Program-made: the position numbers and the translations under genes
Part shown: positions 4,456 through 47,810 of the stretch, piece by piece
Numbering within the stretch: position 1 is the first letter of the stretch
Layout: each line of letters starts with the position of its first letter
Assembly (NCBI RefSeq): GCF_002163715.1
Contig: NZ_CP015698.1
Coordinates: 1,116,001 to 1,180,000, forward strand
DNA length: 64,000 bases
Direction of reading: 5' to 3'
Source: Curvibacter sp. AEP1-3
Lineage (GTDB): Bacteria; Pseudomonadota; Gammaproteobacteria; Burkholderiales; Burkholderiaceae_C
Notes under the pieces: model-generated
The model's input: only the letters and a program-made list of their open reading frames with translations
Databases searched by the model: none
What the model was told of the DNA's origin: nothing

Positions 4456-5496
4456 ATGCAAGCCGTTGTCTACGAAGCCTTTTCCGCCCCACCCCGCCTG
4501 CAAACCGTGCCGGACCCGACGCCGGAGGCGCATGGCGTGGTCGTGAAGGTGCAGGCTACCGGCGTGTGCCGCAGCGATTGGCATGGTTGGGTGGGGCATG
4601 ACACCGACATCGTGCTGCCCCACGTCCCCGGCCACGAGCTGGCGGGCACGGTGGAAGCCGTGGGCAAAGACGTAACCTGCTGGAAGGTGGGCGACCGCGT
4701 CACCGTGCCCTTTGTGGGCGGCTGCGGCAGCTGCCCGGAGTGCCACTCGGGCAACCAGCAGGTGTGCGAAAAGCAGTTCCAGCCCGGGTTCACGCACTGG
4801 GGTTCGTTCGCGCAGTATGTGTCCATCCACAAGGCAGACCTGAACCTTGTGGCTCTGCCCGAGACCTTGGACTTTGCCACCGCCGCCAGCCTGGGCTGCC
4901 GCTTTGTGACCTCATTCCGCGCGGTGGTCGATCAGGGCAAGACCTCTGCGGGCCAATGGGTGGCGGTGCACGGCTGTGGCGGCGTGGGCCTGTCAGCCAT
5001 CATGATTGCCCACGCGGTGGGCGCCAATGTGGTGGCCATCGACATCTCGGAAGACAAGCTCGCCATGGCGCGTGCCATGGGTGCGGTGGCCACGGTCAAT
5101 GCCACCCAGGTGGCCAACGTGGTCGAGGCGGTGATGGAGATCACGCAAGGCGGCGCGCATGTGTCGCTGGATGCGCTGGGCCACCCCACCACCTGCTTCA
5201 ACTCCATCAGCAACCTGCGCCGACGGGGCAAACACATTCAGGTGGGGTTGATGCTGGCCGAGAACAGCACGCCGGCCATTCCCATGGCCAAGGTCATCGC
5301 CCATGAGCTGGAGATTTTGGGCAGCCACGGCATGCAGGCCCACCGCTACGGCGCCATGCTGGACATGGTGCGCACCGGCAAGCTGGCCCCTGAAAAGCTA
5401 GTAGGCAAAAAGATCAACCTTCAGCAGTCGATCGACGCGCTGATGAACATGGACAAGTTTGAAGTAGCGGGCGTGACCGTGATCACCGAGTTCTGA
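4456..5496 (+). CDS. Zinc-dependent alcohol dehydrogenase
   Basis: Medium-chain dehydrogenase/reductase, 346 residues, predicted to interconvert an alcohol and an aldehyde or ketone with NAD(P). Catalytic zinc ligands are visible as Cys38 ([10 protein letters not shown]), His60-Glu61 (GHE) and Cys148 (SLGCRF). The structural zinc lobe has Cys90, Cys93, Cys96 and Cys104. The nucleotide-binding fold carries GCGGVGLS at about 173-180, followed by an acidic residue in VVAIDIS, which favours NAD. The nearest characterised types are zinc alcohol dehydrogenases of the YogA/AdhA kind; the substrate is unknown. Convergent with the CoA-transferase gene, 21 bases apart. Confidence 0.92.
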
Positions 5497-5517
5497 CACT
5501 CTCTGCCAGTCGACGAC

Positions 5518-6813
5518 TCACAAAATCTTCAGTTGCTTGGCCTGTGCGGTCAGCTCATCGCGGAACTTGGGGTGTGCAATGGCGATGAGCTCTTGCGTGC
5601 GCTGCTTCATGGACTTGCCGCGCAGCTGGGCCACGCCGTATTCGGTGACCACGTAGTTGATGTCGTTCTTGCTGGTGGTGACGTGGGTGCACGGCGACAG
5701 CGAAGGCACGATGCGGGAGATGGTGTCGTCCTTGGCGGTAGACGGCAGCACGATGAAGGCCTTGCCTCCCTTGGACCGGTTGGCCGCGCGCACAAAGTCC
5801 GACTGGCCGCCGGTGCCGGAATACGGCGCATGGCCCAGGCTCTCGGAGCCGCACTGGCCCAAAAAATCGATCTGCAAGGTGGCGTTGATGGCTACCAGGT
5901 TGTCGTTCAGGCCTGCAATGGCCGGATCGTTGGTGAACTCTACCGGGTGCATCTCCAGCCCCGGGTTGCGGTGCATAAAGCGGTATAGCTTGGCCGAACC
6001 CAGGCCGAAGGTGGCCACCATTTTTCCGGGCATGAAGTTCTTGCGCCGGTTGGTCACGGCACCCGCCTCTACCAGGGTCATGATGCCGTCGCCAATCATC
6101 TCCGTGTGGATGCCCAGGTCCTTTTTGCCGGTGAGCTGCATGACCACCGCGTCCGGGATGCCGCCATAGCCGATCTGCAATGTGGAACCGTCGTCAATCA
6201 AATCGGCCACGTACTTGCCAATGGCCTGCTGCACCGGCCCGATCTTCGGCAGGCCCACCTCCATGACCGGCGCATCGCTCTCCACCAGCGCCGCCACTTG
6301 CGAGATGTGCACATGGCAGTTGCCAAAGGCAAATGGCACGTTGGGGTTGACCTCCAGCACCACGGCGCGGGCTTTTTTGACGGCCGCCATGGTGTAGTCC
6401 GCGCCCAGGCTCAGCGCGAAGAAGCCATGTTCGTCCATGGGCGACGCCATGGCAAACACCACGTCTGCCGCCATCTGCCCGCGCTCGATTTGCGCCGGAA
6501 TTTCCGAGAAATAGTTGGGGATGAAGTCAATCCATCCCTCTTGCCCGCCGGCCCGTGTGGCCCCGCCAAAAAAGAAGGCAACGTGGCGCACGTGTTCGGT
6601 GGTGGCGGGGTCGATGTAGCCGTACTTGCGCATGGCCAGAATCTGGCAAACCTTCACATCGCGAAAGCTGCGCCGCTGCTCTGACAGCGCGGTGAGCAAA
6701 CTGGGTGGTTCGCCCACACCGGTGGGGACGATGATGGTGTCGCCATCACGCACCTGCCGGATGGCTTGGTCGGCGGATGTGCGTTTGTGTTCGTAAGACT
6801 GCTGGTGCGTCAT
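5518..6813 (-). CDS. Acetyl-CoA hydrolase/4-hydroxybutyrate CoA-transferase family protein
   Basis: A 431-residue class I CoA-transferase of the Cat1/AbfT-like family, expected to move CoA between acetyl-CoA and another carboxylate or to hydrolyse acyl-CoA. Family segments are IVPTGVGEPPSLL near the N-terminus, QIGYGGIPDAVV, GIHTEMIGDG (the Glu of this type of motif is the usual acyl-accepting residue), YSGTGGQSDFVRAA and the C-terminal VTEYGVAQLRGKS. The protein is a little shorter than typical AbfT but contains both halves. Single gene with about 160 bases to the next gene on the same strand. Substrate cannot be assigned. Confidence 0.9.
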   Translation of the reverse strand: MTHQQSYEHKRTSADQAIRQVRDGDTIIVPTGVGEPPSLLTALSEQRRSFRDVKVCQILAMRKYGYIDPATTEHVRHVAFFFGGATRAGGQEGWIDFIPNYFSEIPAQIERGQMAADVVFAMASPMDEHGFFALSLGADYTMAAVKKARAVVLEVNPNVPFAFGNCHVHISQVAALVESDAPVMEVGLPKIGPVQQAIGKYVADLIDDGSTLQIGYGGIPDAVVMQLTGKKDLGIHTEMIGDGIMTLVEAGAVTNRRKNFMPGKMVATFGLGSAKLYRFMHRNPGLEMHPVEFTNDPAIAGLNDNLVAINATLQIDFLGQCGSESLGHAPYSGTGGQSDFVRAANRSKGGKAFIVLPSTAKDDTISRIVPSLSPCTHVTTSKNDINYVVTEYGVAQLRGKSMKQRTQELIAIAHPKFRDELTAQAKQLKIL

Positions 6814-6938
6814 GGGGGGCCTGCGTGTGGGGTGGAGATGATGAACCGCCTGATTCTTCGCCCTCTAACTGACGCAGTGCTTGCCCCGGGACTGACGCAG
6901 ATCAATCGCATACCGAAAATACTGCCAACGCTCTTCCG

Positions 6939-6973
6939 GCATGCGCGAGAAGCTACGTTTTTAATAGCAATTT
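6939..6973. repeat. Dispersed palindromic repeat, partial copy 3
   Basis: Partial copy containing ATGCGCGAGAAGCTAC and ending in AATAGCAATT. It abuts the stop codon of the minus-strand secreted-protein gene at 6972, the same position relative to a gene end as several other copies. Confidence 0.65.
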
Positions 6974-8369
6974 AGAAGGGAACGTCCTTCTTGCCTTCGC
7001 CCTTGGCATTTACATTGATGGACTGCACGGCCGTCAGGCCTATATCGGAAAATACCGCATCGAATATTTGCGGTACCCATGCACCTTGCGCTTTGAACTC
7101 GGTGGCGTAGCGGATGATGATGGGGTTGCTGGCATCTACCCAATACTTCACCGACATAGCTCCCTGGTTAGGGTACTGGTATGCGACTTGGGCTACGCCT
7201 TTGGTGGCTACCAAACGGGCGATCTCGGCATTCCAGTCCGACACCACTTCGTCACTGACACCCACCGGTGCTACGGTGCCCGAAAAAGCCTCTGCCGCAA
7301 AAATGGGAAAGTTGGCTGAACTGCTTTGCAGGCACAGCCCCATGGATTTTTTGACAATGAAGATCCTGGATGAGCCCGCTGTTTTAAATGTGGTGTGGAC
7401 CACAGATTGCATAGGCACATTCGGCAAACTGAAGTTCGCGCCGAATTGCGGAATGCACGCAAGCAGACTGGACTTGAGATTGTCTCCATCGGCACTGCGC
7501 AGTTCAAAAGTCTTCCTTATGCGAATGTCCGCTACCGGTATGACATCGGTAAACGTGGACTGAATGCGGTTGTCTATTGCAACGGGGCGCCCTGTCGCCA
7601 CCGACCCGGCAAAGGGTGCTGGCAAATTGATGCTGCTTGCACTACCGTCTGTAGCCGCCAACAAGCTGAGTCCGGTAGCGTGAATCCAAGGCTGCAAATG
7701 GGCAGCGTAAACCGGGTCACTCAAATTCCCTTCCTGCCTGACAAAGAAAACAACATCAAAGGCAAACCCACGGAAGCGGCTGGCACTGATATTGACCAAG
7801 ACCACGTTGTCTGGCAGCGTGTGCGCATCCGGCGCCACTGGGGACAGTGCCGCCTTGATCCATAGGTTGCTGCTAGCTGCCGCATCGGTCACCGTTTTTT
7901 TGAAATTGGATAAACCTGCGCTGCTTGCACACACATACGCGCTGGATGAAGCTACCTCAGCCGCAGAGCGCTCTGAAAAGTTGTCTACCCACTGGTTTTT
8001 ACTCGTGCTCGGGTTGCAGGGCTTTCTGCCAGTATCCAGGTTGCTCAAACGGCCCGTGATAGACACAAACATCAACGGCAGCAGGCTGCCGGGCTCGCTG
8101 TTCTTGAAGGTCAGGTCATGTTTTGCAACGGAGCCCGTGGGTTCGCGTGTCCGCATATTGACCACGGCAATTTCTTTCACACTGTGCCCCACCAGGGTCC
8201 ATTGCCCCGGTGGTATCGGAAAGGGCTTGGAGAATAAACCCAGGCCCACGCCCCCTTGGACAGAGGCACCAATCGCCAAATTTTCATAGTGCGTGGGATT
8301 GGCCGGCTGGGCATGCGCAGCCCCTCCCAAACACAGCGCCAAAGCCACCCAGTGCGGTACGAATTTCAT
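6972..8369 (-). CDS. Hypothetical secreted protein
   Basis: I do not recognise the family. The 465-residue product begins with a classical Sec signal, MKFVPHWVALALCLGGAAHA, with probable cleavage after AHA, so it is likely periplasmic or exported. The mature part is rich in Ser/Thr and short beta-like segments and has scattered Cys residues (for example RKPCNPST, SAYVCASS, SLLACIPQFG, MGLCLQSS) that could form disulfides. The start is placed at 8369 rather than at an upstream in-frame codon (8396) because AAGGGAG lies about nine bases before it and the signal peptide starts there. Single gene. Confidence 0.7.
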   Translation of the reverse strand: MKFVPHWVALALCLGGAAHAQPANPTHYENLAIGASVQGGVGLGLFSKPFPIPPGQWTLVGHSVKEIAVVNMRTREPTGSVAKHDLTFKNSEPGSLLPLMFVSITGRLSNLDTGRKPCNPSTSKNQWVDNFSERSAAEVASSSAYVCASSAGLSNFKKTVTDAAASSNLWIKAALSPVAPDAHTLPDNVVLVNISASRFRGFAFDVVFFVRQEGNLSDPVYAAHLQPWIHATGLSLLAATDGSASSINLPAPFAGSVATGRPVAIDNRIQSTFTDVIPVADIRIRKTFELRSADGDNLKSSLLACIPQFGANFSLPNVPMQSVVHTTFKTAGSSRIFIVKKSMGLCLQSSSANFPIFAAEAFSGTVAPVGVSDEVVSDWNAEIARLVATKGVAQVAYQYPNQGAMSVKYWVDASNPIIIRYATEFKAQGAWVPQIFDAVFSDIGLTAVQSINVNAKGEGKKDVPF

Positions 8370-8473
8370 ATACAAACACTCCCTTATTGGCCGCATCGCG
8401 GGAAAGACCGGGGAACTCTACACGATGAAATATTGCACCGTGGCCTTTCCAATACCCAATATAAAAATATGCC

Positions 8474-8520
8474 ACTAGCGCAGATGGGATTTTCGCCAGC
8501 AGCTCCTCATTTGATAGCAA
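8474..8520. repeat. Dispersed palindromic repeat, copy 4
   Basis: Starts CTAGCGCAGATGGGA and ends TTTGATAGCAA. Its last 14 bases overlap the end of the phytanoyl-CoA-dioxygenase-like gene: the stop codon and the last codons (VAIK) are supplied by the repeat. Confidence 0.8.
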
Positions 8521-9361
8521 CCAAGGGAAACAGCGCATCGTCCATCACCGCGCCATCCGGCAAACGGTCTGCCAGCCCGGCAAACGGGGGCGAGGTGCGC
8601 CAGCTGCGCACAGCGTGGCGGGCATCGTCGCCCAGATAGCGGGCTGAGAACACGCGGCGCCGCGTGCCCGGCCCTACCCCGCTGCTGGCGTGTAGGGCCA
8701 GCATGTGGAATGCAACGGCATCGCCGGGCTGCAAGGCCCAGGCGAGTTGCTCAAACTTTTCAGGGTGTGCATCGATGGCAGGCAGCTCGGCCAGCGTGCC
8801 TACAGGAAACCACTTGGCCTGCTGGTCGCGGAAGGTGCGCGGCATGTACCAGGTGCCCGCGTGCGAGCCAGCCACAAAGCGCAGCGTGCTCTCCAGAGGC
8901 ACAGGGTCCACGGGTATCCAGAAGCTCACGTTCTGCCGGCCGGCCACGTTGTAGTAGGGCTGGTCCTGGTGCCAGGGGGTGGGTTGGCGGGTGCCCGGCT
9001 CTTTGACCAGAAGGTGGTCGTGGTAGATGCGCACCGTGTCGCTTTGCATCAGCTGCGCGGCGACCAAGGGCAAGGCGCTGTGCTGCATGACGGCCGTGTA
9101 GTCCGGGTTGTGTTGCCAGGTGCAAAAGTCTTCAACAAAGCGGCCCGGGTCGTCCGGCTGGCTGGCCACCAAAGCCAGCGGGCTCAGGTGCGCCAGGTTG
9201 TGCTCGATGCCACGCTCCAGCTGCGCCACTTCAGCGGGCGTGAGCACACCGCGAAGCACCACAGCGCCGTAGCGTGCGTAATGGTGAACGGTGTCGGGCG
9301 GCAGGGTGTAGCGCATGGGATGCAGAGGCGAATGATGAATGGAAAGCAGTTTATCTGCCAC
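8507..9361 (-). CDS. Phytanoyl-CoA dioxygenase family protein
   Basis: Fe(II)/2-oxoglutarate-dependent oxygenase of the PhyH family, about 270-284 residues. The iron-binding triad is visible as His and Asp in PTPWHQDQPYYNV and the distal His in HMLALHASSGVGPGT; the Arg in TRRRVFSARYLGDD is in the usual place for binding 2-oxoglutarate. Two starts are possible: a GTG at 9361 or an ATG at 9316 (MRYTLPPDTVHHY), and neither has a strong Shine-Dalgarno. The ATG fits better the usual family N-terminus just before the YARYGAVVLRG strand. The C-terminus is encoded by a dispersed repeat. Substrate unknown. Confidence 0.88.
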   Translation of the reverse strand: MADKLLSIHHSPLHPMRYTLPPDTVHHYARYGAVVLRGVLTPAEVAQLERGIEHNLAHLSPLALVASQPDDPGRFVEDFCTWQHNPDYTAVMQHSALPLVAAQLMQSDTVRIYHDHLLVKEPGTRQPTPWHQDQPYYNVAGRQNVSFWIPVDPVPLESTLRFVAGSHAGTWYMPRTFRDQQAKWFPVGTLAELPAIDAHPEKFEQLAWALQPGDAVAFHMLALHASSGVGPGTRRRVFSARYLGDDARHAVRSWRTSPPFAGLADRLPDGAVMDDALFPLVAIK

Positions 9362-9418
9362 CCATCATCAACGTAACGCAGCTACCGTCAGTTAGACTGG
9401 GCCAAAGGAAACATCACT

Positions 9419-9589
9419 ATGGCCGGCGTATTTGGCAAAGACCCCAACATGAAGCGAAAAGGTAGCCGGGAGGAGCTGGACCGCATCATGGCTGAGCGAG
9501 CCCGCAACAAGGAAGCTGCGGCAGCCAGGTTCAAGCTCAAGAAGCCGGCCGCCGCAAGCACCCCGAAGGCAGAGACCCCCAAGGCATAA
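9419..9589 (+). CDS. Small basic hypothetical protein
   Basis: A 56-residue frame, MAGVFGKDPNMKRKGSREEL onward, rich in Lys, Arg and Ala and predicted to be helical, with an Ala/Pro/Lys tail ending in TPKA. An AAGGAA about ten bases upstream supports translation. It starts about 58 bases after, and divergently from, the PhyH-like gene start at 9361. No function recognised; the coherent composition and ribosome binding site make it more likely real than not. Confidence 0.6.
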   Translation: MAGVFGKDPNMKRKGSREELDRIMAERARNKEAAAARFKLKKPAAASTPKAETPKA

Positions 9590-9598
9590 ACCGCCCCC

Positions 9599-9937
9599 TC
9601 ACTTGCTACGGATGCGCTGGCTTTTTCGCGTGCGCTCCATGAAGTCGTCGGGCCTGGTTTTGACCCAGGCCACAAAAGACGCCATGTCAGGGTGGGCCAG
9701 CAAAGCCTCCACCGAGTTGAACTGTCTGGCCAACTCGGTTTCCGTGAATAGCGCGTGAATCTGGCGGTGACATATCCGGTGCAGGTATTCGGTGTGCCTG
9801 CCGCCTTTGGACTTCGGAATCAAATGGTGGGCGTCGCGCTGAGCCGCAGGAATCTTGCGTTCACACAGCGGGCACCTGAAATCCGCAGGCACTTCCTGAA
9901 CCCGCTCTTGCTGAAGCAGGCGCCTGATACGACCCAT
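9599..9937 (-). CDS. HNH endonuclease domain protein
   Basis: A 112-residue protein with a compact HNH nuclease motif: CPLCERKIP provides the first Cys pair, DAHHLIPKSKGG the catalytic His region, and LHRICHRQIHALF the second zinc pair and final His. The start chosen is the ATG at 9937, which overlaps the stop of the preceding BLUF gene as TAATG and implies coupled translation. The open frame continues upstream to 10051, but that part is antisense-like shadow of the BLUF gene. Similar stand-alone HNH proteins are widespread in Proteobacteria with unknown role. Confidence 0.85.
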   Translation of the reverse strand: MGRIRRLLQQERVQEVPADFRCPLCERKIPAAQRDAHHLIPKSKGGRHTEYLHRICHRQIHALFTETELARQFNSVEALLAHPDMASFVAWVKTRPDDFMERTRKSQRIRSK

Positions 9938-10170
9938 TACAGAACGGCGGGGTCTTTGTTCCGGGAGTCTTTCAGGATGCGGTGGTACAGCGCATTCACT
10001 GCCGTCCGGTCCCCCTCCAGCTGCTGCAAGAAGATGCCATTGGACAAGCAAAGCGCACCTGTAATGCCCGCAGCCTGGTTGTTACGCGCGGAACTCTGCA
10101 AGATGTCTTTGACATCGCCCGGGCCGAGGATGCCGGCAGAGCGGCTTGCGTAGGTGAGCTGGATGAGCAT
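9937..10170 (-). CDS. BLUF-domain photosensor, C-terminally truncated
   Basis: A 77-residue protein with the N-terminal two thirds of a BLUF (blue light, FAD) domain: MLIQLTYASR holds the flavin-interacting Tyr7, NNQAAGITGAL the conserved Asn31, and GIFLQQLEGDRTAVN the conserved Gln49. BLUF domains normally run to about 95-100 residues and end in a strand with the conserved Trp or Met; that part is absent because the frame stops at 9937. I checked the other two frames just downstream and neither continues the domain. The HNH gene starts on the same four bases. It may be non-functional or may represent an unusual split arrangement. Confidence 0.8.
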   Translation of the reverse strand: MLIQLTYASRSAGILGPGDVKDILQSSARNNQAAGITGALCLSNGIFLQQLEGDRTAVNALYHRILKDSRNKDPAVL

Positions 10171-10275
10171 GAATGGGGGTGTCCTTGATTGATTTCATGA
10201 TAGCCAGACACCCGACTTTTTGCCTGCGTCCCCCAAGTAACCTCTGAAGCCACTTCCAACGGTCTCTGAAAGCCC

Positions 10276-10689
10276 TTACACCTTGACGCTTGTGCGCAGC
10301 AATGCGGTCCGCAACTCGCGGGTGGCTGGAATTGAAACATCCACGCCCTGCACCGCGAGGTCGAATGGTGAGCCAGGCTTGATGCCGGCAGGGAGCAGTT
10401 TTTTGACGGGAGTCACATTGGGGTGCTTGCCATCGGCTGGGCACATGCGCACACCAAATCCGAATTCCTCAAGCACCCCTTTGGCATACAGCTCTGCCAA
10501 TTGCTGAAACGACACAAAGGTGGAACGCTTCACGTCTTTTCCGTTCGGCTCACGGACGCTGCGAACGATCTCGAACTTTCCCAGCGAGTCCCGCTGGGTA
10601 TTCGTAAAGGGATGCACCACCAAGGTCACACGAAGGCCTCCTTTGGGGGGCGCCAGCGTGTGCTCGACGGCGATATCAGTTAGCAACAT
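10276..10689 (-). CDS. Hypothetical protein
   Basis: A 137-residue soluble protein without signal peptide or membrane segments; family not recognised. The N-terminal half contains GGLRVTLVVHPFTNTQRDSL and the C-terminal half FGFGVRMCPADGKHPNVTPV, which could be two short beta-rich repeats. The start at 10689 is preceded by AAGGAAA about five to six bases upstream, which decides it over an upstream in-frame codon at 10773. It stands alone, about 100 bases downstream of the BLUF gene start on the same strand order. Confidence 0.6.
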   Translation of the reverse strand: MLLTDIAVEHTLAPPKGGLRVTLVVHPFTNTQRDSLGKFEIVRSVREPNGKDVKRSTFVSFQQLAELYAKGVLEEFGFGVRMCPADGKHPNVTPVKKLLPAGIKPGSPFDLAVQGVDVSIPATRELRTALLRTSVKV

Positions 10690-10780
10690 GTCGTTTTCCT
10701 TGTGAATCCATGGGCCGCATTCTGCCGCCTGTATTGACCCGCTACCGCCCTCCTCAAGCAAATGCGGCATCAAAACGGCC

Positions 10781-10827
10781 TCCAGCGCACGTGGAATAAG
10801 CGGGAGCAGCTTCTATTTTGATAGCAA
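10781..10827. repeat. Dispersed palindromic repeat, copy 5
   Basis: Degenerate copy with CAGCGCACGTGGAATAAGCG followed by GGAGCAGCT and TTGATAGCAAA. It lies 18 bases after the end of the CorA-like gene, between it and the minus-strand hypothetical gene. Confidence 0.75.
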
Positions 10828-10845
10828 ATCGTCTGTCCTAGCCAC

Positions 10846-12504
10846 TCAGTCGCGGTCCCGATCGCGCGCCCAGATGGCAGCAAAGGCTTTCAGCTTGGTC
10901 CACGGGCTTACGCGCTCTTCGGACAGCACATCCAGAAAATCAGACAAGCGCTTGGACTTGGCCATGGTGTACACGGTGAGCGCAATCGTCACCACAAACA
11001 CCACCCCGAACACCAGCACCTTGCGGGACATGGGGGCGTCTGCCTCGGCCAACAGGTTCATGCCCAAGAAGCCGGTGGTGATGGTGCCAATCAAACCCAG
11101 TATGGTGACCACTGTGAGGCGCACCACGGTATTGGCTTGGCGGCGCAGGCTGTCAGCCTCCAGATAGTTATTCATGTCGGCGATGCGCTCTTTGACTTCC
11201 GAGTACAGCGGGTCCAGCCCCAGGTGATGCGCGCACTTGGCAAACAGTGCGCGGGTCTGGGCCTGCTCCGAAATTTCATGAAACCAATAGCGATGGGTAA
11301 AGCGCAAGAAGCTGGCAAAGGTGCTGCGGATACTTCGCTTGAAGGTCCGCACGCTGCCAGGGTCGCTGATGTTGAGGTTGCGCAGGGTTTCGGCCAGCCG
11401 GTCTGAAAACATCAAAAGCGCTGCCTTCTGAAAGTGCGCAATCAAAAACAGCAAAAAATGCTGGTGCCTGAACTGGGCCAACACACCCCGGTCCCGGCAC
11501 GAGAAGAACTGGCTGTTGGCATCCCCCACCACCACCAGCGAATGGCCGGTGCAGAGATAGCGGGTGTGGGGTGCAGCACCACCGGTTGTCCAGAAGCGGT
11601 CGTAGCAATAGCGCTCTTCAAAGTCCTGCAGGTGGTCATTGGCAAACGGCAGTGCAGCTTCGCCATCGGCACTGCCTGCACCGGTGACCAAACCCAGGCG
11701 CACAAAGTCGCTGCGGCTCAGGGTCTGCGGCTCGTCCACCGCCAGGTAGCCCAACAGGGGCATGCGGTAGTACTCGATCTGCCGGTAGCGCAGTGCGCCT
11801 AGCTGGTCTGAATGGTCGCTCACCAAGGGCTGCAGCAGCCAATCCCAATGGGCAGCAATGCGGGGTGCGCGGTGGCGGGCCACATGCGACATGAACAGAT
11901 CGGGCTGCCCCGCGTCAGACTGCGCCAGCACCTGGCCTTGAGCACCCAGCCACTCGGCCTGGTGCAGGCAGTGCTGCGCCTGCCCCTGCGCATCCCAACC
12001 CGAGGGGTAGCCGCGGCCGAAGCGGTATAGCAACTCTTGCGAATGCGTGAGTGGCAGGTTGTCGCCCGCCACCTCCACATTGAGCAGCACCAGGTCCAGA
12101 TCCAAAAAGAAATACAGGTCCACGTGCACCACACTAAGAGTGATGGCCGCCATGCCGGGCCGCAGCACCACCCGCACCGCGCCGACGTCGTGCCTGCGGA
12201 ACACCCGCATGGGCGAACCATGCGCCTGCCCACCACCTTTGGCATGACCTTCGCCATACAGAAAGCGCTGCACATAGGGCAAGAAGGTCACGAACTCGTT
12301 GTAGTGCCGCTCATGAAAGTTGCAGGCGTCGCCGGTGTATTCGTCCACCACTTCGCGCCAGGGCGTTGCGTCGCCCATGGCGGCCAGAATCTCCCAGGGC
12401 TTGGAATGCCGGGCCTCAGCCCCCCGCACCGGCATCAGCCGCAGAGGCCATAGCAAGATTTGACCGAAATGGCGAACGCAGTGGGGAGCTTCAGGCGTGT
12501 GCAT
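10846..12504 (-). CDS. CorA-like membrane protein
   Basis: A 552-residue protein. The C-terminal region has two closely spaced hydrophobic helices, the first ending in TTGFLGMNLL, which includes the Gly-Met-Asn signature of CorA/Mrs2 divalent cation channels. The helix before them (SLRRQANTVVRLTVVTILG) matches the CorA stalk. The 400-residue cytoplasmic N-terminal part is longer than in classical CorA (about 316 residues in all) and I do not recognise it. Probable inner-membrane divalent cation transporter or a diverged relative. The start is uncertain: ATG at 12504 (MHTPEAPHCV) chosen, upstream in-frame codon at 12549 possible. Confidence 0.7.
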   Translation of the reverse strand: MHTPEAPHCVRHFGQILLWPLRLMPVRGAEARHSKPWEILAAMGDATPWREVVDEYTGDACNFHERHYNEFVTFLPYVQRFLYGEGHAKGGGQAHGSPMRVFRRHDVGAVRVVLRPGMAAITLSVVHVDLYFFLDLDLVLLNVEVAGDNLPLTHSQELLYRFGRGYPSGWDAQGQAQHCLHQAEWLGAQGQVLAQSDAGQPDLFMSHVARHRAPRIAAHWDWLLQPLVSDHSDQLGALRYRQIEYYRMPLLGYLAVDEPQTLSRSDFVRLGLVTGAGSADGEAALPFANDHLQDFEERYCYDRFWTTGGAAPHTRYLCTGHSLVVVGDANSQFFSCRDRGVLAQFRHQHFLLFLIAHFQKAALLMFSDRLAETLRNLNISDPGSVRTFKRSIRSTFASFLRFTHRYWFHEISEQAQTRALFAKCAHHLGLDPLYSEVKERIADMNNYLEADSLRRQANTVVRLTVVTILGLIGTITTGFLGMNLLAEADAPMSRKVLVFGVVFVVTIALTVYTMAKSKRLSDFLDVLSEERVSPWTKLKAFAAIWARDRDRD

Positions 12505-45606: not shown

Positions 45607-46059
45607 ATGACACGCATCGCCCCCACCGCCCTCGCCCTGCTCCTGGTGAGCACATTTGCCCACGCGGGTGACAACATCCGCCCCGACCCCGGCATGTGGG
45701 TGGGTGTCACCAAACTATCGGTCGACCGCACCAACTGGCGCACCATGAGCGACACACGGGGCTGTATGACCAAAGAAGATGCAACAGATTGGGAGAGCAA
45801 TGCACGCCAGCAAATTGCAGCTGCGCAATGCTCGGTACAAAGCTTGACCGTCGGCATGGGCAAGATCAGCGGCACCATTAGTTGCGCCAACGAAAACCAA
45901 GTGCAGATGAAAGTCGACGGCCGCTACGACAACCGGAGTTACGACATCGACCTCGTCTCCACCAGCACCATCATGATGCCCCCCACAGCCGGCGGCCAAG
46001 CAGTTCCCGTCAAGCTCTACGGCAAGTGGACGGGGCGGATGGTAGGAGCTTGTTCCTAG
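45607..46059 (+). CDS. DUF3617-like secreted protein
   Basis: A 150-residue protein with a Sec signal peptide, MTRIAPTALALLLVSTFAHA. The mature part contains RPDPGMWVGVTKL, a pair of Cys residues (RGCMTKED and AAQCSVQS) and a third in TISCANENQVQMKVDGRYDN, then VSTSTIMMPPTAGGQ and GKWTGRMVGACS at the C-terminus, a layout seen in DUF3617 family proteins. Function unknown; periplasmic location expected. The ATG at 45607 fits the signal peptide. Its last 240 bases recur at 49915-50154 as a truncated copy. Confidence 0.75.
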   Translation: MTRIAPTALALLLVSTFAHAGDNIRPDPGMWVGVTKLSVDRTNWRTMSDTRGCMTKEDATDWESNARQQIAAAQCSVQSLTVGMGKISGTISCANENQVQMKVDGRYDNRSYDIDLVSTSTIMMPPTAGGQAVPVKLYGKWTGRMVGACS

Positions 46060-46585
46060 CAAAACTGGGCGCGAATGCAGAGGAAATTTGTCCGAACAAC
46101 TTATTCATCAAAAGCAGTTTCGGGCGACAAGAATGTCAGCTCAAGGCTCGACGTCCCCCCGTATTTGAGTAGCAAATGATCTTGGAGTCCAAGGTTGAAT
46201 TTAACTGCTTTTGAATAAGTGTTTTGGCGTATGCCGCCGGGGTCATTCCGCCAAGCGATCTCTTTGGTCGTTCTTCGTTGTATTCCTTTCTCCATGCTTC
46301 CACGACAACTCGGGCGTGATGCAAGCTGGTGAACCAGTGCTCGTTCAGGCATACATCCCGGAACCGTCCATTGAATGATTCGATGTAAGCGTTCTGGTTT
46401 GGCTTGCCGGGTTCGATCAGGAATAGCTGAACACCTCTTGCGTGCGCCCATGTCAGCATGGCCCGACTGTAGAACTCTTTGCCGTTGTCGGTTCTGATCG
46501 CCTTTGGCAGACCTCTGGTCGCGGCAAGCCGCTCCAGAATTCGCACCAGATGGTTTCCTCCCAACGCCCGCTCCAGCACGATGGC

Positions 46586-46960
46586 TGTGAACAATTAAAA
46601 GTAAATGGGAAAAAGCACAAGTTAGTGAGAAGAATTATTTTGAAATCTCATATTGGAAATCAACATGACTATTAGCAAACGTAAACCCTCCGCAAAAGTG
46701 CTTGCTAAAAGCCTATTTCGACTTGTTCTGGAGGCTGAGAGGCTTGCCGCAAAGCTAAATCAATTTGGTAATGGTCAGTACGTCACATCCGTTGAATCCG
46801 CAGCTCGTCAAATTTCAAGCGCAGCAATGCGCCTTGAACAGTCAGCATTCGGGAATTAGCAAAAAGTAGTCTCACTAACTTCTGCACTTTGTCTCATAAA
46901 CTTCTATATGAAATCAGTAAAAACTGGCTTAATTTTCTCAACAACTTCTGATTATTCACA
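46586..46960. mobile_element. 375-bp miniature transposon with 5-bp target duplication
   Basis: Flanked by ATGGC on both sides (46581-46585 and 46961-46965). Ends are imperfect inverted repeats: TGTGAACAATTAAAAGT on the left and, reading inward from the right, TGTGAATAATCAGAAGT (14 of 17 match). Short iterons follow: two on the left (46597-46610, 46617-46630) and three on the right (46870-46883, 46892-46905, 46936-46949) with core AGAAGTTnnTGAGA. A TG...CA end, 5-base duplication and asymmetric iterons are features of Tn7/Tn5053-type elements. It carries no transposase; one 64-codon frame lies inside. Mobilised in trans, if at all. Confidence 0.88.
46665..46859 (+). CDS. Small basic protein within the miniature transposon
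   Basis: A 64-residue frame beginning MTISKRKPSAKVLAKSLFRL, with a central amphipathic helix region (VLEAERLAAKLNQFGNG) and a Ser/Ala-rich second helix. TTGGAAA lies six or more bases before the ATG. The codon usage is AT-rich, unlike the surroundings. It is the only sizeable frame in the element. No family recognised; it may be a passenger or a leftover from a larger parent element. Confidence 0.5.
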   Translation: MTISKRKPSAKVLAKSLFRLVLEAERLAAKLNQFGNGQYVTSVESAARQISSAAMRLEQSAFGN

Positions 46961-47402
46961 ATGGCGACAGCTTCATGGGTCGCGTCATCGACGATGGTCA
47001 GGTTCTTGATGCTGCACCCCTCAGCGGTGCGATCAAACACGAAGTCCATGGACCACACCTGATTGGCTGCCGTGGGGGGTTCCAGGGGATGCCGATCTGC
47101 CAGAGGGATCTTCTTGCGCCTGCGCTTTTTCACCTGCAAGCCTGCCTCGGCGTACAAGCGGTCCACGCGCTTGTGTTTGACCTTCTCTCCTGCCTGGCGC
47201 AGCTTCAGGTAAATCATTCCGGCACCGTAACGCCGATGACGCTGGGCCAAGGAGATGATCTTCTCCTTGAGCGCACAGTTGCGGTCCTGGGCAGGCTCGT
47301 AGCGGTAGGCACTGGCGCTCATGCCAATGACGCGCAAGGAACAACGCTCGCTTAGTCCGTGGCTGACCAGGTGGCGCACCAGTTCGCGTCTGGCCGGTGC
47401 GC

Positions 47403-47666
47403 TCACCACTTTTTTCTCAAGGCTTCTTTCGTCACCTCGTTTTCCAGCATCGCTTCGGCCAGCAGCCGCTTCAGGCGTGCGTTTTCAGTTTCGAGCTCCT
47501 TTAGGCGCTTGGCAACTGATACGTTCATGCCGCCAAACTTGCTACGCCACAGGTAGTAGCTGGCCTCCGAAAAGCCATGCCTGCGGCACAGCTCGGCTAC
47601 AGCCAGGCCCGCTTCCGCTTCCCGCAGGAAGCCAATGATTTGTTCTTCGGTAAATCTCTTCTTCAC
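47403..47666 (-). CDS. IS3-family transposase OrfA
   Basis: An 87-residue helix-turn-helix protein: KKRFTEEQIIGFLREAEAGL then AVAELCRRHGFSEASYYLWR followed by a leucine-zipper-like ETENARLKRLLAEAMLENEV. A GTG at 47666 matches the family N-terminus better than the upstream codon at 47705, which lies in the terminal repeat. The 3' end contains the slippery heptamer A-AAA-AAG (47415-47409) just before the TGG TGA stop, the usual -1 frameshift signal producing the OrfAB transposase; OrfB overlaps here in the -1 frame. Confidence 0.9.
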   Translation of the reverse strand: MKKRFTEEQIIGFLREAEAGLAVAELCRRHGFSEASYYLWRSKFGGMNVSVAKRLKELETENARLKRLLAEAMLENEVTKEALRKKW

Positions 47667-47810
47667 GTCCAATCTCCTGTCTATGGGATTGGACTCCAAG
47701 ATCATTTGCTACTCAAATACGGGGGGACGTCGCTACATTTGGATCATCTGGCCGAAGATTAAACATATGAGATAGTCGCGTCCATGATTCATGAGCTATA
47801 AGTGACGCAT

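Follow-up and report, generated by a model that had tools for sequence, protein, structure and literature searches.

The window analysed here, a stretch of 64,000 nucleotides from the genome of Curvibacter sp. AEP1-3, contains on its minus strand an IS3-family element close to ISCte3 (46150-47731, with end coordinates that are approximate and set by eye) having inverted ends ...CCCCCCGTATTTGAGTAGCAAATGATC on both sides, and its transposase gene (orfB) is interrupted by a 375-bp insert at 46586-46960. One match of this host element, at 80% and covering 49% of the query, was to a plasmid sequence annotated as IS3-like element ISCte3 family transposase. The insert is AT-rich, with 38% GC vs 60% for the window, is flanked by the duplicated pentamer ATGGC (46581-46585 and 46961-46965), and both of its termini begin with TGTGAA, with 14 of 17 bases matching between them upon recomputation, in agreement with the first-pass annotation of the locus. 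No other TGTGAA/TTCACA pair spaced by 100-2000 bp and having equal 5-bp flanks was present in the window, and such pairs occurred at 0.005 per window in 200 mononucleotide shuffles. The OrfB frame, also as annotated earlier, is restored upon removal of the insert: flanks joined with one ATGGC gave a stop-to-stop frame of 322 codons, to be compared with 196 codons for the longest on that strand with the insert in place. Of four other IS copies used for comparison, three uninterrupted ones aligned to the joined flanks across the junction and thereby represent the empty site, either without gaps (L006, 83%) or with small gaps away from it (L007, 81%; L009, 78%), with no alignment at the junction for the fourth copy (L008). 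An RNA element was also sought, with no Rfam match at gathering score within 46000-47800. The presence of a miniature element at this position is confirmed.

Inside the insert lies a single 64-residue frame on the plus strand (46665-46859), likewise as first annotated and here regarded as putative cargo, with a weak Shine-Dalgarno-like GGAA upstream as judged by eye. Protein searching found one relative of this ORF, P0002, being of equal length and 81% identical; the cluster of the ORF itself represents eight contigs, and neither Pfam nor PHROG gave any match at E<=1.

Searching the complete genome (4.38 Mb, two contigs) with the insert gave four places, namely the window copy, a second copy and two partial matches located 34 kb apart. 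The second copy (C1:3951280-3951654, L001) is identical to the first over all 375 bp, and its flanks (L001 1489-1500 and 1876-1887) read TTTGG and TGCCT, without a flush 5-bp duplication; TGCCT is found again in the left flank eight bases off the end, which may be due to chance. Both flanks together were found in no other of 100 same-genus genomes, its own included, among the best three candidates per genome.

The left end of the insert (46586-46631, plus strand) has two TnsB-type sites, which an iteron scan placed as a degenerate outer iteron AAAAGTAAATGGGAA (46597-46611) and an inner iteron ACAAGTTAGTGAGAA (46617-46631), both on the plus strand, and the right end (46867-46960, minus strand) has three, given by the same scan as AGAAGTTGTTGAGAA (46935-46949), AGAAGTTTATGAGAC (46891-46905) and AGAAGTTAGTGAGAC (46869-46883), counted from the terminus and all on the minus strand. 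The two plus three iterons with a common core proposed in the first-pass annotation held as regards the layout, with all three right iterons being exact copies of AGAAGTTnnTGAGA, but the two at the left are imperfect, with one mismatch in the inner and three in the outer. Their summed score at fixed positions was 54 of 60, with a maximum of 32 in 20,000 shuffles, a control that is partly circular because the consensus and the positions came from these same elements. The exact motif AGAAGTTNNTGAGA occurs seven times in the genome, whereof six are in the two miniature copies and one in the resident element described below; allowing one mismatch gave 19 matches vs 13 for a reversed control pattern, so that only exact matches discriminate.

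Full-length relatives and their insertion sites

The two partial matches mark the termini of a single element of 34,558 bp (C1:2398021-2432578) flanked by a duplication of AGTGC, hereafter called the resident element, which near its right end has the genes tnsA, tnsB, tnsC (TniB) and tniQ. Domain E-values were 2.5e-12 for the TnsA N-terminal domain, 5.9e-6 for Mu-transpos_C (TnsB), 2e-67 for TniB and 5.5e-31 for TniQ, with the TnsB also being similar to that of Tn6677 (3.7e-38) and of Tn7 (2.6e-14). All four are open reading frames, with tnsB lacking internal stops, and the gene set of an autonomous Tn7-like transposon is hence present inside this element. Its left end lies within the last codons of lipA and provides the stop codon of that gene (L013 2022; lipoyl synthase by NCBIfam TIGR00510). 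The earlier proposal of a miniature derived from a TnsB/TniA-type transposon is thereby supported, with the same type of ends found on a full-length element having TnsA, TnsB, TniB/TnsC and TniQ. The proposal had also named the class as Tn7/Tn5053-like, of which the Tn7-like part stands; membership in Tn5053/Tn402, with TniA, TniB, TniQ and TniR and no TnsA, was rejected on account of the TnsA found in the resident element and in eight relatives (six of the tblastn loci given below, G412 and G451).

The likeness between the miniature and the resident element is confined to the ends, at 78% over 50 bp for the left and 83% over 48 bp for the right, and the resident element therefore need not be the direct parent; a full-length relative does exist in the same genome, as had been suggested, but a parent in the strict sense it may not be. 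The outer iterons of the resident element are decayed, with one clear site left at each end, and its inner left iteron AGAAGTTAGTGAGA is one base off that of the miniature. The right end of the miniature matched that of an element in another genome, G412, at 80% over 94 bp, and is closer to it than to the resident right end (77.9 vs 48.2 bits), so that the miniature may in fact be mobilised by a relative absent from the present genome.

Longer relatives were also found in other genomes. The one in G239 spans 43,068 bp with a duplication of ATTGC at the 3' end of lipA (C1:29151; lipA by likeness), and its tnsA, tnsB, tnsC and tniQ matched at 57-74% identity; with it and the resident element, the full-length relatives having tnsB-like genes that were predicted earlier have been found. 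The G412 element spans 23,366 bp between ends at C93:30206 and 53571, with a duplication of ACGCC and tnsA near the right end. In G434 the left end lies 2 bp past the lipA stop (L021 711; lipoyl synthase by TIGR00510) and the duplication is TGAAA, with the ends on two contigs; the right-end contig, holding 1.76 kb of the element, showed no tns gene. One end was seen in each of two further cases, this being a right end with tnsA in G451 and, in L024, a left end within an epimerase-like gene. The longer relatives of three genomes (the present one, G239 and G434) and two miniatures (G408 and G814) have the 3' end of lipA as a common site, and a second common site adjoins a SNF2-family helicase gene at its 5' end, where the right ends of G412 and G451 are found (L055 5207; L056 2347). 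The miniature of the window lies inside an IS3 gene and not at such a fixed attachment site.

A right-end sequence model (R1) was built from eight sequences with the miniature of the window among them; under filtering at the cost of weak matches, it gave matches in 8 of 103 same-genus, 8 of 399 family and 6 of 399 order genomes, with the own genome counted each time. By tblastn, a tnsA match was found by the end in 6 of 19 loci (G239, G134, G099, G190, G509 C1 and G681), and the other 13 were left ends, miniatures, contig edges or unresolved. The relatives have one asymmetric layout with two sites at the left end and three at the right, decayed in some: counted from 1, left sites start at +12 and +32, and right sites at about +12, +54-56 and +76-78. 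All five putative sites are recognisable in the miniature of the window, in G239 and in the miniature of G884, and both left sites are present in L021 and L024; the third right site is lacking in the miniature of L034 (score 4 of 12) and weak in that of L038 (8 of 12). Judged by this likeness, the ends of the miniature belong to a Tn7-like family of the genus of the host and its relatives.

Other miniature elements and their small ORFs

Three further miniatures came from scanning viral contigs for the pattern of the ends. That of L034 is 316 bp with a duplication of GCGAG, lies near a spanin-like gene and holds a 71-aa ORF; that of L038 is 369 bp with a duplication of AGTGG, lies within a phosphoadenosine phosphosulfate reductase-like gene and holds a 62-aa ORF matching PHROG 6161 at 9.9e-9; and that of G884 (L085/L086) is 585 bp with a duplication of TAGCC, holds overlapping ORFs of 57 and 83 aa and has a superinfection-exclusion-type PHROG match among its neighbours. 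The DNA retrieved for the three contigs (L034, L038, L086) gave no match to tns genes. Two more miniatures are located at lipA in bacterial DNA, one of 189 bp with a duplication of ACCAA (G408) and one of 290 bp without duplication, having 2 of 5 bases equal (G814). The latter lacks any ATG-initiated ORF of at least 30 aa, and in the former the only such ORF is 36 aa long and runs on the opposite strand. The 5-base duplications that the first-pass annotation proposed to look for in other copies were seen in eight other elements, though neither in the second copy of the window's miniature nor in G814.

All four miniatures with ORFs, none of which is at lipA, read from the two-site left end towards the three-site right end, with ORFs that differ from each other and start at nucleotides 52-80. 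In three of the four, 101-103 bp separate the last stop from the right terminus, and in L034 49 bp. The miniature of the window itself is composed of a two-site left end of about 50-60 bp, a small ORF and a three-site right end of about 100 bp. Iteron scores of all six miniatures exceeded those of all 20,000 shuffles made for each, with most of the elements having been found through these same patterns. The 71-aa ORF of L034 matched only itself in the protein search. This ORF and the 64-aa ORF are likely to be genes, a status that we do not put more firmly because the one has no relative besides itself and the other a single one.

No further copy of the miniature of the window was found in plasmids or phages, and the same was true for that of L034. 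Among 399 family genomes, its own included, blastn found the former only in its own genome and as the right end of G239, considering the best two candidates per genome, and 2 of the 399 had a match to a paired-iteron pattern. P0002 led to 48 stretches in viral contigs, of which none was confirmed as a miniature. Chance matches to the patterns were dropped, being six of eight genome-contig stretches, L035-L037, L039-L041, L093 and L095, and nine of 13 stretches in a further pattern scan; G399 (L065), a decayed end pair whose termini are not clear, was left out of the count. One of the dropped viral contigs (L037 3046-3110) has three tandem AGAAGTTAGTG repeats, without a visible transposon end.

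Mechanism, alternatives and relation to known systems

We consider the 375-bp element to be very probably a non-autonomous miniature Tn7-like transposon that would be moved in trans by TnsABC, because of how its ends are laid out, its 5-bp duplication, the empty site, the identical second copy, the resident relative and the independent viral miniatures with other small ORFs. It has the TGT/ACA termini and 5-bp duplication of Tn7-like ends as well as repeated TnsB-type sites with unequal spacing at the two ends, sites that are in part decayed or missing in the resident element, L034 and L038. The tnsA, tnsB, tnsC and tniQ genes that an autonomous Tn7-like transposon carries are not inside the 375 bp, which hold the 64-aa ORF only. 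The element also has the features of a MITE, including absence of a transposase, a size within about 50-500 bp, terminal repeats, a duplication and evidence of movement, the latter being the second identical copy and the empty site; the 585 bp of the G884 miniature exceed the usual MITE size.

In the mechanism that we propose, TnsB made elsewhere in the cell would bind the iterons of the miniature, TnsA and TnsB would excise it, and its joining to the target, at cuts staggered by 5 bp, would be the task of TnsC. The miniatures would have derived from full-length elements through loss or replacement of the interior, the small ORF would move along as cargo, and miniatures in phage genomes could pass between hosts having the transposase. 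Binding of TnsB to the end iterons is, as are cargo function, target choice and mobilisation in trans, what we infer from the features described above. More tentatively, and with the balance of our judgement slightly against it, one- or two-gene Tn7-like cassettes may move within and between phages and chromosomes using the transposases of resident full-length elements, with phages gaining and losing small accessory genes.

The miniature could instead be a decayed remnant of internal deletion that was moved once or twice by chance, with its ORF as a leftover having no cargo role. In-situ deletions would leave short elements at the usual site of the longer ones, just as G408 and G814 are found at lipA, the latter with no ATG-initiated ORF of at least 30 aa and the former with the 36-aa ORF on the opposite strand, and no protein family matched the 64-aa ORF. 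We nonetheless find a remnant unlikely, as two identical copies at unrelated sites, three viral miniatures with different ORFs at the same position and in the same direction, a 64-aa product with a relative of equal length and the absence of ORF-bearing miniatures from lipA all argue against it. More plausible, if still somewhat short of an even chance, is mobilisation by a close relative of the resident element, for example of G412 type, that was lost later or is carried by other hosts of these phages. This is a variant of the trans-mobilised Tn7-like miniature that we prefer, and both can hold together: the longer match of the right end to G412 and the decayed outer iterons of the resident element speak for such a relative, but the tnsA, tnsB, tnsC and tniQ of the resident element are open and its inner left iteron is one base from that of the miniature.

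Far less probable than either, and in our view highly improbable, is an ordinary IS-derived MITE or a miniature of Tn5053/Tn402 type. Elements of TniA type also have 5-bp duplications and multiple end repeats, and the right-end contig of G434 had no tns gene in the part seen, but tnsA is located at the right end or close to it in the resident element, in the six tblastn loci, in G412 and in G451. To our knowledge, IS-derived MITEs do not typically have asymmetric ends with multiple iterons.

Large cargo and tightly controlled targeting are what Tn7-like transposons are known for. In the parts of the surveys and the review that were searched (PMC11406308, PMC8649781, PMC10293859), with the ends, 5-bp duplications and end-specific TnsB spacing described in PMC11406308, Tn7-like transposons resemble the miniatures in having TGT...ACA termini, 5-bp duplications and arrays of TnsB sites spaced differently at each end, and resemble their long relatives, several of which are located at a common chromosomal site, in carrying tnsA, tnsB, tnsC and tniQ. 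The miniatures differ from them in lacking tns genes, in being 189-585 bp, and in that those bearing ORFs are away from the common site. The shared insertions at the 3' end of lipA suggest an attachment site that goes unnamed in these three sources, in which neither the word lipA nor the word miniature occurs. In the open-licence literature, judged mostly from listings, no Tn7-derived miniature element was found, nor was lipA found there as a Tn7-like insertion site; mentions of MITE and Tn7 in the searched text of PMC7043111 are unrelated.

The counterparts among Tn3 elements are the TIMEs, which according to the portions used of PMC4133298 and PMC13367494 are transposase-less derivatives of a large family thought to move in trans. 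They are like the miniatures in size (about 200-300 bp), in giving 5-bp duplications and in lacking a transposase, but use Tn3 ends and transposase and carry genes mostly as pairs flanking a segment, although TIME-RES, a TIME derivative, encloses a resolvase gene (same sources). The present miniatures, unlike TIMEs, enclose one or two small ORFs as single elements, with the three found outside the genome of the window being in viral contigs. Bacterial MITEs, as covered in the text used of a 2024 review (PMC10969869), are likewise short and without transposase, with terminal repeats and target duplications, and that text mentions Tn7 for its attachment site only.

The miniatures suggest a little-noticed route for the movement of small genes, with similar ones in phage-type DNA. 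If Tn7-like ends indeed carry single small genes that phages ferry, small accessory genes of phages could move in a way that escapes annotation, and the minimal natural ends with TnsB sites that still work would become testable, as a natural counterpart of engineered mini-Tn7.

Other genes of the resident element

A 577-aa gene (L013 2061-3794, plus strand) adjoins the left end of the resident element, on the strand opposite to tnsABC. Its protein family is conserved, with 673 of the 8000 proteins scored reaching E<=0.001, and a homologue is found about 5.9 kb inside the G239 element. No Pfam, NCBIfam or PDB sequence match supported a TnsE-like selector or revealed a known domain, and a TnsE-like target selector is hence a guess. 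A 334-aa ORF, weakly like a tyrosine recombinase, was also considered as a core gene and was dismissed because the G239 element has no match to it. Elsewhere in the genome there is a second, distant TnsB homologue, 27% identical (G000 C1:2769083-2770483, L106).

The cargo of the resident element includes genes with ORC-CDC6-like and PRTase-CE domains at L013 18302-19972 and L014 297-1208, both on the minus strand, which we take to be genes of conflict or defence type. It also includes a luxI/luxR-type pair adjoining fatty-acid desaturase, cyclopropane-synthase-like, AMP-binding and patatin genes (L014 2202-2771 and 3291-4250, minus strand, and 5146-11866, plus strand; G000 C1 about 2418200-2427900), apparently constituting a quorum-sensing and lipid-modification cargo.
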